Positions 12,665-17,142 of a DNA stretch of 64,000 bases are shown piece by piece. How positions within the stretch are numbered: the first letter of the stretch is position 1; each line of letters opens with the position of its first letter. Under the pieces are notes generated by a model. It was given only the letters and a program-made list of their open reading frames with translations, did no database searches and had not been told where the DNA came from. The translations under genes and the position numbers were made by a program. The stretch comes from Desulfosporosinus acidiphilus SJ4 (GTDB lineage: Bacteria; Bacillota; Desulfitobacteriia; Desulfitobacteriales; Desulfitobacteriaceae), in assembly GCF_000255115.2 (NCBI RefSeq), contig NC_018068.1, positions 3,939,977 to 4,003,976 of the forward strand, written 5' to 3'.

Positions 12665-14242
12665 TTATAACAAAATTACTTGTTCTTGAAAATCGCCAGT
12701 TAAAGGAAGTTCCGCAATTCGCTCAATAAAACCCTCTCCATATAACACTACAAAATAGAGTGGATTCAAGACTCGTTCCTGTCTCTCCTTATTGGGTGCG
12801 ATTCCGGCTTCTAACTTCTGTAGGCGATTGAGAACACTGCCGTATTTCTTTCGTTGAGCCTGCCATAGCTTCTTTCTCAAGTATTCTATTTGATAACCTA
12901 CCTTCTCTTCATTACGAGTTAGTAACTCATGGACATTCGAATGAATTTTCTCGAGAGGCTCCAGTTCTTTATAACCTTTTTCGATTGCTGCTCTTAAACA
13001 CTGTAAGCGGTTGTCTATCTCCAGTGAATCCTGATCACGAAGGCAGCGTTCTTTGTGAGCCTCAAGCCCCTGATATACATCCCTTAAAGTTAAGCCTTCT
13101 CGATTGAGGGTTTTCTGCCAGGAAGGCGTCAGGATCACCCCCGAGAAACGGGGAAATAAGATTGGCATATTAAAACCAAAGGTTGAGAATACTTGTCCCA
13201 ATTGGGCCCAGTAATTTAATTCCCCAGGCCCCGGAACATAGGCTAAAGTGGGAAATAAAAACTCCTGAACAACCGGCCGTGTCACAACATTGGGAGAAAA
13301 CATTCCAGGACTCTTCCTCAGCAAGGCGTTGAGCTCATCGGTATCCAACATTTCATCCGAGCCTCTCAAATAAAACCCTTGACCTTGATTTAAAATCGCC
13401 CTGCGCTCAGGTTTGGCCAGGAATAAGTTTACTTCTCCCCCCAGGGGCTGAATTTGGGCCTGAAACCCAAGATCCACCCAAGCCTTTGTTCTTTGAGTGA
13501 GTGCTTCCCGTACATCAACGTATATTTTTATGATCTGTTCATACATTGGAGCCGCTAATTGTTTGAATTCCGGCAACATTGGATCAAAAAATATAAGTCC
13601 CCATCGTTTAAGCAGCCATTGTAGTGTTAAAGCAAACCATTGAGTCAAATTCTCAGCTTGTTCATGAAATTGACGACAATGCTGGAGTACGTATTTTTTA
13701 AATTCGCCTTCCGGCAAATCGAAAAGCTGCTGCTCAATAGTATCCCAGGCCGGAACTGGCTGATGTCCCACTGATCTCCCTCCGCCATCACCCGGAAGGC
13801 TGCAAGAAATAATCTTATCTTCAGAATTAAGAAAGAACGTCTTATGTATTTCTAACCAATCGTGGTCTTCGCCGGCTATCCAAAAGATAGGTACCACGGG
13901 CCGTCCCAGTTTTTTTCGCTGCTCTTCAGCAAGCCGAATGACAGTTATGGCTTTAAATAAGGTATATAGAGGCCCGGTTAGCACCCCCGCTTGCTGGCCG
14001 GTAAGGACTGCTAATGTTTCCTTATGTCTCAGCTCTTCAATCATCAGAAATGTTTCTCTGTTTGCTCCCAAACCCTCGTGATATTTTTTCAGGATATCTG
14101 CCAGCCGTTCTCGCTCATAATTCCTTGAATCCAAATAGTAAGCACGCTGCTCGAAGCTTTCCTGAAGCTTGGGATCTCCGCCGGGAAAAAATAAAGCCAC
14201 TTGTTCAAAACAAGTAGCCATAGTATGCATTGGATCTCTCAT
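12665..14242 (-). CDS. bshC: Bacillithiol biosynthesis cysteine-adding enzyme BshC
   Basis: This BshC-family protein (525 aa from the ATG at 14242) is preferred over upstream starts because GGGGGGAGG lies just before this codon. Hallmarks are LTGQQAGVLTGPLYTLFKAITVIRLAEE about residues 80-107, PIFWIAGEDHDWLEI about 118-132, and FLFPTLAYVPGPGELNYWAQL in the middle. A C-terminal coiled coil (ELEPLEKIHSNVHELLTRNEEK) follows. BshC adds cysteine to glucosaminyl-malate, the last step of bacillithiol synthesis. Length is near the usual 540 aa. It lies 44 bases behind selD, a pairing that may be functional or just positional. bshA and bshB are not in the window. Confidence 0.9.
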   Translation of the reverse strand: MRDPMHTMATCFEQVALFFPGGDPKLQESFEQRAYYLDSRNYERERLADILKKYHEGLGANRETFLMIEELRHKETLAVLTGQQAGVLTGPLYTLFKAITVIRLAEEQRKKLGRPVVPIFWIAGEDHDWLEIHKTFFLNSEDKIISCSLPGDGGGRSVGHQPVPAWDTIEQQLFDLPEGEFKKYVLQHCRQFHEQAENLTQWFALTLQWLLKRWGLIFFDPMLPEFKQLAAPMYEQIIKIYVDVREALTQRTKAWVDLGFQAQIQPLGGEVNLFLAKPERRAILNQGQGFYLRGSDEMLDTDELNALLRKSPGMFSPNVVTRPVVQEFLFPTLAYVPGPGELNYWAQLGQVFSTFGFNMPILFPRFSGVILTPSWQKTLNREGLTLRDVYQGLEAHKERCLRDQDSLEIDNRLQCLRAAIEKGYKELEPLEKIHSNVHELLTRNEEKVGYQIEYLRKKLWQAQRKKYGSVLNRLQKLEAGIAPNKERQERVLNPLYFVVLYGEGFIERIAELPLTGDFQEQVILL

Positions 14243-14286
14243 TGTTATCCTCCCCCCGCTACCTATCCGGTACACGAGGTATTTTA

Positions 14287-15360
14287 TCACGCATGCAAGG
14301 AAATCGCAATTCTGCCGGGCTGCCCCTTGCGGACTCGCCCAATGACCGCCGCTGCAGGCGTCTGAGCAGTCGCTAACTGTCTCAGCAAAGGACTCAGATG
14401 TTCTTCAGGAACCGCAATCAGCAGGCCGCCGGACGTTATTGCATCACAGAGAACAAGCCGCAGTTCCTCAGGCACATTCTCATGAAACTCTATCTCACCT
14501 TCCAGGTGACGTTGATTCGCTATGGTCCCGCCGGGAATCGCTTTTTGTTCTATGCATTCCCATACACTTTCTAAAACCGGGACATCTTCGGCATATACTT
14601 CTCCACTAAAGCCGCTGGCCATAAGCATCTCATGCAAATGTCCCAATAATCCGAAACCTGTTACGTCAGTGACAGCATGAACACCAATCTGGATTGCTGC
14701 TTCAGCCGCCCCTTTATTCAGAGCAGCCATAACCTGGATAACCTCTTGTTCCGCCTGTGCCGGTACTATGCCGCGCTTGATACCAGTCGTTATTATTCCT
14801 ACCCCGAGAGGTTTTGTAAGTACTAAATAATCGTCAGCTTCAGCTTTAGCATTGGAAAGAACATGTTCAGGATGAACAATGCCGGTGACAGAAAGCCCAT
14901 ACTTCGGCTCAGAATCGTCAATGGAATGCCCCCCGACGAGAACGGCCCCTGCCTCACGAATCTTGTCGCTGCCGCCCTGCAGTATTTGTGCCAACACATC
15001 CATTTTCAATTTACTGACGGGAAATGAGACCAAATTCATGGCCGTCAAGGGTTTGGCACCCATGGCATAAATATCGCTTAAAGCATTGGCTGCAGCAATC
15101 TGTCCAAAAGCATAGGGATCATCGACAACAGGAGTGAAAAAATCAACGCTCTGCACGATGGCCTGTTGCTCATTTATTCGGTATACTCCAGCATCATCGG
15201 AAGTATCCAATCCTACAATTAAATTGGCATCTTCTTGGTTTGGAGGTAAAAAGCACAAAACTTGTGCCAGGTCCGCTGGACCTATCTTGCATCCTCAGCC
15301 TGCCTTCGTAGAAAACTGGGTCAATCGGATTTTATCTTGTTGATCTAGACCGAGATTCAT
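14287..15360 (-). CDS. selD: Selenide, water dikinase SelD, selenocysteine-containing
   Basis: The real gene starts at the ATG at 15360, behind a GGGGGTG ribosome site, and reads through an in-frame UGA at 15295-15297 (codon 22). The context is FSTKAG-U-GCKIGPADL, the conserved catalytic loop in which other SelD enzymes carry Cys or Sec, with the essential Lys three residues on (codon 25). Taken as a stop, the UGA would leave a truncated protein lacking the catalytic residue. The full product is 357 aa, normal for the family, with ATP-binding DTSDDAGVYR and GGHSIDD stretches. SelD makes selenophosphate from selenide and ATP for Sec-tRNA synthesis. selA lies directly upstream. A candidate SECIS hairpin follows the UGA. 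Confidence 0.93.
15269..15283 (-). promoter_or_regulatory. Candidate bacterial SECIS hairpin in selD
   Basis: Eleven bases after the UGA codon the minus strand reads AGGTCCAGCGGACCT, a 6-bp stem with an AGC loop containing G. Bacterial SECIS elements are short hairpins within the coding sequence just 3' of the UGA, with a G in the apical loop that SelB contacts. The position and shape fit. A longer lower stem was not worked out. Confidence 0.6.
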
Positions 15361-15573: not shown

Positions 15574-17010
15574 TCAATCCTCAACAGTACGGTTTTCCTG
15601 CTCCCAGGCCTGTAAACGTTCGGTTATATCCCCAATGTCGCCCTCAAGCAGCGTCCGGCCGTCGATTAGCACTCGATCCTTTTGAATTCGCGTTAAAATG
15701 GCCACAGGACCCAGACGTAAAAACTTTTCCAGTTCGCCGACACTTCTTTGTCGGGGACGAATAGAGCACACCCAGGTAGGAAGGTCGACTGTAGGCCATG
15801 CCCCTCCTCCGACCTGGGATACATCTTTCTTAATTTCAACCAATAAAGCAGTATTTGACCCCAGAGCAGATTTTAACTCTTCAGCAACGGATTTCAAATC
15901 CTTCAAAGAATAAGAAAGCATCCTCCAGACAGGAATTTCCTCGCCTTCCCCATTTTCATACATCCGGAGAGTTCCTTCTAAAGCCGCTAAGGTCAGCTTA
16001 TCAATTCTTAAGGCCCTTGTTAACTGATTAGCCTTCAAGCGCTCAATAAAACGTTTTTTGCCCACGATAATCCCTGCCTGGGGGCCGCCCAATAATTTAT
16101 CCCCGCTGAAGGAAACCAGATCGAGACCTGCCTTAACAGCTTGCTGAACCGTTGGCTCCGGTGGAAAACCCAAGCTTGCTCCATCAAAAAAGCTCCCGCT
16201 TCCTAAATCCTCCATAACAGGAATTCCCCGTTTTTCTCCAAGTTCAACTAATTCTGCTCCCGAAACAGAGTGCGTAAACCCTTCAAGCCTGTAATTACTG
16301 GTATGAACTTTAAGTAAAAGAGCTGTTTCCGGACTGATGGCACCTTCATAATCCTTATACCAGGTCTTATTAGTGCTTCCTACCTCTACCAGCTTAGCCC
16401 CTCCGGCTTTTAAGACTTCAGGGATTCGAAAGGAACCTCCCACTTCGACTAATTCCCCGCGGGAAACAACAACTTCTTTACCCATAGCAAAGGTATTCAT
16501 CATTAATAGAACTGCTGCAGCGTTGTTATTCACCACCATCGCGGCTTCCGCTCCTGTGAGTTCACAGAGAATCTGCTCAACGAGACTATATCTTGAGCCT
16601 CGTTCTCCTGTCTTGATGTTCAATTCCAGATTACTGTATCTTTCAGCCTGTGCTGCCACAAAACGTGCAACCTCAGGGGCAAGAATTGCTCTGCCGCAAT
16701 TAGTATGCAATACTACTCCGGTTGCATTAATCACTCGGCGCAGATTCATCTCCGGATTTGCCAAAGCTTGAAGAAGATTAACTTTCAGCCACGGCCAAAG
16801 CCGCTGCTCAAAGTCCCCCCCCAACTCCCATGAATTCTGATAGACATTTTTTCTTGCGTTTTGTAAAACCTGTCGAACACAATGTTTTAAACGAGGCGAG
16901 TTCCTCTTATTCGTCAAGAAGGGACTGAATTCAGCTTCTGCTTTCAGTCGCTCAAGCACTTCGTGAACCGCAGGAAGCGCTCTTAATTGTCTTTGCGTTT
17001 CTTCTTCCAC
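15574..17010 (-). CDS. selA: L-seryl-tRNA(Sec) selenium transferase SelA
   Basis: SelA converts seryl-tRNA(Sec) to selenocysteinyl-tRNA(Sec) using selenophosphate and pyridoxal phosphate. The frame is open to an ATG at 17034 without a ribosome site. The GTG at 17010 has AAGGAG nine bases upstream and yields 478 aa, beginning VEEETQRQLRALPAVHEVL, which matches how SelA proteins normally begin. The PLP-binding Lys is in SFSGDKLLGGPQ (about residue 305). NATGVVLHTNCGRAILA and NNNAAAVLL are family-typical. selD follows after 213 bases. selB and the selC tRNA are not seen here. Confidence 0.95.
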   Translation of the reverse strand: MEEETQRQLRALPAVHEVLERLKAEAEFSPFLTNKRNSPRLKHCVRQVLQNARKNVYQNSWELGGDFEQRLWPWLKVNLLQALANPEMNLRRVINATGVVLHTNCGRAILAPEVARFVAAQAERYSNLELNIKTGERGSRYSLVEQILCELTGAEAAMVVNNNAAAVLLMMNTFAMGKEVVVSRGELVEVGGSFRIPEVLKAGGAKLVEVGSTNKTWYKDYEGAISPETALLLKVHTSNYRLEGFTHSVSGAELVELGEKRGIPVMEDLGSGSFFDGASLGFPPEPTVQQAVKAGLDLVSFSGDKLLGGPQAGIIVGKKRFIERLKANQLTRALRIDKLTLAALEGTLRMYENGEGEEIPVWRMLSYSLKDLKSVAEELKSALGSNTALLVEIKKDVSQVGGGAWPTVDLPTWVCSIRPRQRSVGELEKFLRLGPVAILTRIQKDRVLIDGRTLLEGDIGDITERLQAWEQENRTVED

Positions 17011-17142
17011 CGATAGACACTCCTTACAGGCCATTTCTATGTTAACCAGTTTACAATATAATTAGGCCTTGCACACTTTTTAGGATTTCGACAACCCAAT
17101 TGGCATATGATATAGACACAAGCTAATTTGAGGAGGAATTTC

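Follow-up and report, generated by a model that had tools for sequence, protein, structure and literature searches.

A selenoprotein gene of a known kind in Desulfosporosinus acidiphilus: selD, its in-frame UGA and a two-hairpin RNA element

FdhA and SelD are the most widespread bacterial selenoproteins (PMC1794560), and the SelD family is the second largest among prokaryotic selenoproteins (PMC13188914); Sec is reported in 19% of the SelDs found in reference genomes, and the same RNA-structure screen recovered the SECIS of Sec-containing SelD (PMC4561486), with a figure of the SelD SECIS in which tandem hairpins may be visible. The published rules for a bacterial SECIS call for a G within the first two positions of the loop, often with a G or U after it, at 16-37 nt from the UGA, and some elements outside the consensus model may form distinct classes (PMC13188914). 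Changes from Sec to Cys in SelD are already known, Photobacterium profundum is described as having two SelDs, one with Sec and one with Cys (PMC1273633), and SelD has been reported in a cluster with a SirA-like protein and a class-V aminotransferase (PMC2432076). According to a 2026 review, the cellular supply of selenium to SelD is incompletely elucidated (PMC13188914). Judged from its sequence, the selD gene described here is a selenoprotein gene of this well-known kind; its neighbors and its RNA signal add some new detail.

The gene lies on the reverse strand of the window, which is the whole 64,000-nucleotide stretch of Desulfosporosinus acidiphilus SJ4 DNA that was analyzed. Its coding frame (14287-15360) opens with an ATG at 15360, upstream of which is a ribosome-site-like stretch, GGGGGUG, and runs through 21 codons to a TGA at 15297-15295 (codon 22, U22), then GCK and the open SelD frame to a TGA at 14289-14287; a TAA follows in frame, so that a tandem UGA-UAA stop (14284-14289) closes the gene. 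With the UGA read as Sec, the product has 357 residues and scores 405.9 bits against the NCBIfam equivalog model TIGR00476 (cut-off 125). Its catalytic loop is KAGUGCK, with Lys three residues beyond the Sec position, and in the SelD of solved structure 3u0o the residue aligned with U22 is the active-site Cys, the first in GCGCK; this is also the active-site Cys position of the E. coli-type SelD. The preliminary description had proposed this start, ribosome site and frame, and had placed the UGA where other SelDs have Cys or Sec; sequence, translation and alignment bear it out on both counts. It had also expected that treating the UGA as a stop would leave 323 residues lacking the active-site loop, which is exactly what mechanical ORF calling yields: only 15258-14287 is called, from a TTG start that sits inside the second hairpin discussed below. 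Reading the UGA as Sec restores a 357-residue SelD to the annotation where mechanical gene calling truncates it.

The distribution of SelD types was surveyed in 73 genomes of the order, where SelDs with at least 60% identity were taken as being of this type (a 61% UAAK fragment in G031 was set aside). There are 40 of these, and in 39 the loop is UGCK with a UGA; since the UGCK class is itself defined by the UGA, the telling point is that none of the 40 orthologues has Cys. The 39 carry the N-terminal part as well as the UGA, so that relatives do not begin at the position equivalent to 15258; the one exception (L055, in G056) has a replaced N-terminus and no loop. The window SelD is 77-87% identical to those of nine named Desulfosporosinus loci. 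Other SelDs with UGA in the order are of the UACK (12) and UAAK (9) forms, the Cys forms are CGAK (16), CGCK (2), CTAK (2), CIAK (1) and CDAK (1), and three SelDs, including that of G056, have no readable loop; in these SelD-like genes of three relatives (L055, L070 and L078) the N-terminal catalytic loop is missing or replaced. Sec-SelD paralogs with GUACK or GUAAK loops were seen near LysR regulators (L072, L073, L059, L061), and neighbors resembling sulfur or anion transporters occur, where scanned, beside L072, L059 and L057.

Sec-SelD is present in 46 genomes of the order, of which 45 have a selB above cut-off; the other, G025, has tRNA-Sec in an assembly that is 85% complete, and it is the one genome with Sec-SelD among the 18 having no selB match. 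Among the 55 genomes with selB, Sec-SelD was found without a Cys-SelD in 35, with one in 10, Cys-SelD only in 8 and neither in 2. Within the genus (29 genomes, several of them incomplete assemblies) the UGCK form is present in 21, 13 without and 8 with a Cys-SelD found, while six have only a Cys-SelD and two have neither form. Three genomes (G015, G017, G027) each have two selB matches above cut-off and two strong tRNA-Sec matches. On a wider scale, a SelD match at E <= 1e-70 turned up in 257 of 398 sampled Bacillota genomes, and among the matches listed, best first, almost every one contains one TGA, so Sec-SelD is ordinary there and the remark in the preliminary description that the gene is not a new principle stands. 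Three SelD matches (G167:C5:3477-4508, G348:C95:6467-7498 and G128:C6:3629-4675) have an in-frame TAG in addition to the TGA, which may be UAG recoding or an error.

The genome containing the window (4,991,181 bases in 3 contigs, 99.99% complete) has what Sec decoding calls for. Besides the selA adjoining selD, it encodes selB (C3:4911533-4913404, in two adjoining pieces that together score 370.9 bits against a cut-off of 242.25) and tRNA-Sec (C3:4903315-4903408, 64.9 bits against a gathering score of 47), to which ARAGORN assigns the anticodon TCA (UCA in the RNA); the earlier claim that the organism decodes Sec, which absence of selB or selC would have contradicted, is thus supported. Protein family searches found two further genes with in-frame UGA, both for molybdopterin oxidoreductases and both with SECIS-like hairpins: L122 (C3:813688-814959) and L126 (C3:2317695-2319320). 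One of them, with hairpin loop GGUCU, encodes a formate dehydrogenase (866.1 bits, cut-off 666.25); the other, with loop AGUU, is formate-dehydrogenase-like, with 214.9 bits, below that cut-off. Each loop lies 18 nt past the UGA. Further Sec genes were sought in these oxidoreductase families only, so the count is not a selenoproteome census. When the genome was searched with a covariance model built from the selD element, no convincing further copy emerged (next best E 0.013), and Rfam at gathering thresholds gave no match within the window. The window has 33 same-frame UGA sites with enough open frame on both sides, five of them outside other long ORFs; inspected by eye, the four that are not in selD were rejected, since they look like codons that arose by chance ahead of genes or belong to no recognizable gene.

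No second SelD was found in the genome, the only other match being 25% identical over residues 53-271. Since no other SelD was found, Sec synthesis would depend on an enzyme that itself contains Sec, a positive feedback, and in that sense the self-feeding loop of the preliminary description holds. Relatives have left this dependence. In four genomes (G017, G023, G032 and G033; loci L104, L105, L106 and L107) selD has been deleted between a still-adjoining selA and bshC, and the stretch between the two retains 26-53 bases with 88-100% identity to the 3' end of selD in relatives (best rows); on a tree of bshC, two changes are needed to explain the loss. All four carry selB, a UGA-containing formate dehydrogenase and a Cys-SelD of the CGAK type, and tRNA-Sec was found in G017 and G023 and not in the fragmented G032 and G033; from these gene contents, a Cys-SelD is apparently enough for Sec decoding in two of the four at least. 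As for the Cys-SelD neighbors that were scanned, L087 (G008) lies beside a TusA/SirA-like protein and a class-V aminotransferase, and for L095 (G017) the neighbor scanned is a flagellin. A selenium pathway would thus depend on its own product, and relatives that lost the Sec gene and still have a Cys-SelD would have escaped. As to how such a loop starts from zero, our guesses are low-level insertion of Cys or another amino acid at the UGA, or an inherited enzyme; the existence of relatives that left the dependence makes the question testable.

The sequence just downstream of the UGA contains two tandem hairpins on the reverse strand. Hairpin 1 (15269-15283), the one proposed in the preliminary description, has a core of four invariant base pairs, GGUC/GACC (15282-15270), and a variable loop; hairpin 2 (15252-15268) has seven base pairs and a GUU loop (15261-15259) that lies 33 nt past the UGA. 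The 51 bases from the UGA fold only moderately better than shuffled sequences (z -1.81, 10 of 200 shuffles as good), so the structure is carried by comparative evidence and not by energy. For a longer stretch of the window (75 nt) the minimum-energy fold shows one long stem-loop, at the base of which lies the UGA region; this was rejected, the consensus of 38 sequences being two hairpins.

Codon usage is one line of that evidence. Among 37 UGCK genes of sufficient length (two of 39 rows, with fewer than 300 residues, were dropped), the sole invariant codon in 99 conserved columns of three- to six-fold degeneracy is a GGT five codons past the UGA, and the sole invariant in 43 conserved two-fold columns is a GAC eight codons past it; GGT stands in 37/37 against 19% at other conserved Gly columns, and GAC in 37/37 against 18% at other conserved Asp columns. 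The wobble bases of both codons pair in the GGUC/GACC of hairpin 1, the core of which is kept in all 38 orthologues with enough sequence. Hairpin 2 has at least six base pairs and a GU loop in the same number (38/38) and follows the consensus GGCRCAR-GUN-YUGYGCY; over 33 distinct rows 99.1% of its cells are paired, and at two pairs both partners are exchanged (GC in 22 and AU in 11; AU in 29 and GC in 4). For both hairpins together, 99.4% of cells are paired as opposed to at most 53.7% in slid controls, and the covariation score is 0.212 as opposed to at most 0.114. The paired cells, the covariation score and the doubly changed cells were each reached by none of 500 shuffles; against this, two of the five measures do not discriminate, with doubly changed pairs matched by 206 and further pair types by all 500.

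The published SECIS rules were applied to both hairpins. Hairpin 2 follows them in all 38 orthologues (in the window with seven base pairs, GUU and 33 nt), whereas hairpin 1 does so in the window (loop AGC, 17 nt), in 17 of the 38 UGCK and in 12/12 UACK sequences. The UAAK paralogs keep hairpin 2 (98.1% of cells paired; at least six base pairs in 8/9), and in the UACK paralogs hairpin 1 is retained (93.3% of cells) and hairpin 2 is not (42.9%; at least six base pairs in 0/12). In the Cys-SelD negative control, neither hairpin 2 (at least six base pairs) nor hairpin 1 (at least four) was present in any of 22. Taking order and phylum together, 70 of 111 unique elements have hairpin 2, and 66 of the 70 keep a hairpin 1 stem of at least four base pairs; six of the 111 fit neither hairpin rule as coded, one of these (L143) because of register limits only. 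Loci L193 and L195, and their refetched counterparts L233 and L235, were dropped as having no Sec site by pattern, spurious second pattern matches were dropped in L138 and L148, and L102 was too short for the hairpin counts. Where hairpin 2 is present, 8 of 70 elements have the Pro codon CCG, which puts a G into the loop of hairpin 1; where it is absent, 34 of 41 do (Fisher p 3e-14, a value that ignores relatedness). A tree of 117 SelDs (one short row dropped from 118) shows 12 or more changes of hairpin 2; in six supported independent pairs, CCG was on average opposite in 3.1, the same in 0.1 and without difference in 2.8, which is in the right direction and not significant by sign test (median p 0.25).

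We hold with high confidence that selD encodes a SelD with Sec in its catalytic loop, the UGA being decoded by way of SelB, a UCA tRNA and the two-hairpin element, in a self-dependent loop. Sec-tRNA with its UCA anticodon would be brought by SelB to the in-frame UGA, insertion being directed by the two tandem hairpins downstream; SelB would read the GUU loop of hairpin 2, and hairpin 1, by folding 13 nt away, would place that loop at an effective 20 nt (33 - 13) from the UGA, near the distance of 18 nt seen in the two further UGA genes that were examined in the genome. A true stop at the UGA, with SelD made from the internal TTG at 15258 and lacking the catalytic loop, or with the gene a pseudogene, would agree with mechanical ORF calling, which gives exactly 15258-14287, and with three relatives (L055, L070, L078) in which the loop of a SelD-like gene is not readable. 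It is nonetheless scarcely credible, given that 39/40 orthologues retain both the N-terminal part and the UGA, along with the GCK Lys and an RNA element that is conserved, that the TTG belongs to hairpin 2, and that the Sec machinery is present in the genome. The Sec machinery can insert cysteine at UGA in some systems, and the UGA might accordingly be read as another amino acid such as Cys or Trp, or by general readthrough; the presence of selB alongside Sec-SelD in 45 of 46 genomes makes this very improbable, and the four other filtered UGA candidates of the window do not, by eye, look like genes running through a UGA.

More weight belongs to the proposal that hairpin 1 is the SelB-binding SECIS and hairpin 2 an accessory, which we regard as possible if doubtful. 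The invariant core of hairpin 1 in 38/38 speaks for it, as does a loop that begins 16-17 nt past the UGA, much as in the other two UGA genes (18 nt), and it is the hairpin retained in the UACK paralogs (a G in the loop in 12/12, hairpin 2 in 0/12). Its loop varies, however, with G in the first two positions in 17/38 as opposed to the GU loop of hairpin 2 in 38/38, and it usually has a G when hairpin 2 is absent (CCG in 34/41 as opposed to 8/70). Hairpin 2 is thus probably the best candidate for the loop recognized by SelB; the hairpin of the preliminary description is real, with its core invariant in 38/38, and is probably not the part that SelB recognizes, for which hairpin 2 fits better. Our reading is that the recognition loop would lie in hairpin 2 where this is present and otherwise in hairpin 1. 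A separate and second novel reading would be that the selD SECIS is bipartite, the SelB-recognition loop being able to occupy either hairpin. The two-hairpin element could serve to test how SelB locates its loop when the distance differs.

The gene order around selD recurs as well. Upstream lies selA (15574-17034, reverse strand; TIGR00474, 566.1 bits, cut-off 267.9), and directly downstream, on the same strand, bshC (12665-14242), for the bacillithiol cysteine-adding enzyme; the ORF at 12665-14290 scores 465.9 bits against TIGR03998 (cut-off 265.8), and the start is likely the ATG at 14242, which has a GGAGG-type site (by eye), as opposed to the GTG at 14290 of the mechanical ORF. In each of the 20 UGCK loci of Desulfosporosinus that have sufficient flank, and in G042, G045, G046 and G047, bshC comes immediately after selD; at E <= 1e-20 none was found in the genomes of the 14 other UGCK loci, nor in that of G022, where the contig ends in selD. 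Among the 29 genomes of the order with bshC, it follows selD in 24 and selA in the four with selD deleted, and in G026, an incomplete assembly, it was not placed, so that every placed bshC (28/29 genomes) is within the selA/selD locus. A bshA is present in 32/73 genomes, in this one at C3:3938793-3939908, just outside the window. Outside the order, where bshC was counted at SelD loci only, the selA-selD-bshC arrangement was found at 14 of 61 loci: 3/40 and 11/21, the 21 being no even sample because they were chosen as best-scoring SelDs. These loci are in family groups f4, f14, f20, f56, f85 and f133, and the gene order is found in eight Bacillota family groups overall; two of the outside BshC proteins score 503.7 and 435.1 bits against the BshC model (cut-off 265.8). 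Among the literature matches listed (titles and beginnings of abstracts), none links selD to bacillithiol. The titles and abstract openings that join bacillithiol with selenophosphate concern SenB. It is conceivable, and to our minds rather unlikely, that selA-selD-bshC constitutes a functional unit in these Bacillota, in which bacillithiol would carry reduced selenium to SelD or protect it; if so, the thiol made beside selD would be the selenium donor for Sec synthesis there, and the recurring gene order points to a testable answer on how selenium is delivered to SelD.

Compared with the described systems, a pair of Sec- and Cys-SelDs like that of Photobacterium profundum is also found in ten genomes of this order, whereas in the genome of the window only the Sec form was found, and four relatives have lost the Sec form at this locus and have a Cys form. 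The cluster of SelD with a SirA-like protein and a class-V aminotransferase has its likeness in the neighbors of the Cys-SelD of G008, and the window selD lies outside such a cluster. Hairpin 2 fits the published bacterial SECIS consensus in all 38 orthologues; that consensus is a single stem-loop, whereas here an extra, invariant hairpin stands between the UGA and hairpin 2. With the Sec-containing bacterial SelDs the gene shares Sec at the same position of the catalytic loop and a SECIS downstream, and nothing fundamental differs; what sets it apart is that it is the only SelD found in its genome, that two tandem hairpins follow its UGA, and that it lies between selA and bshC.
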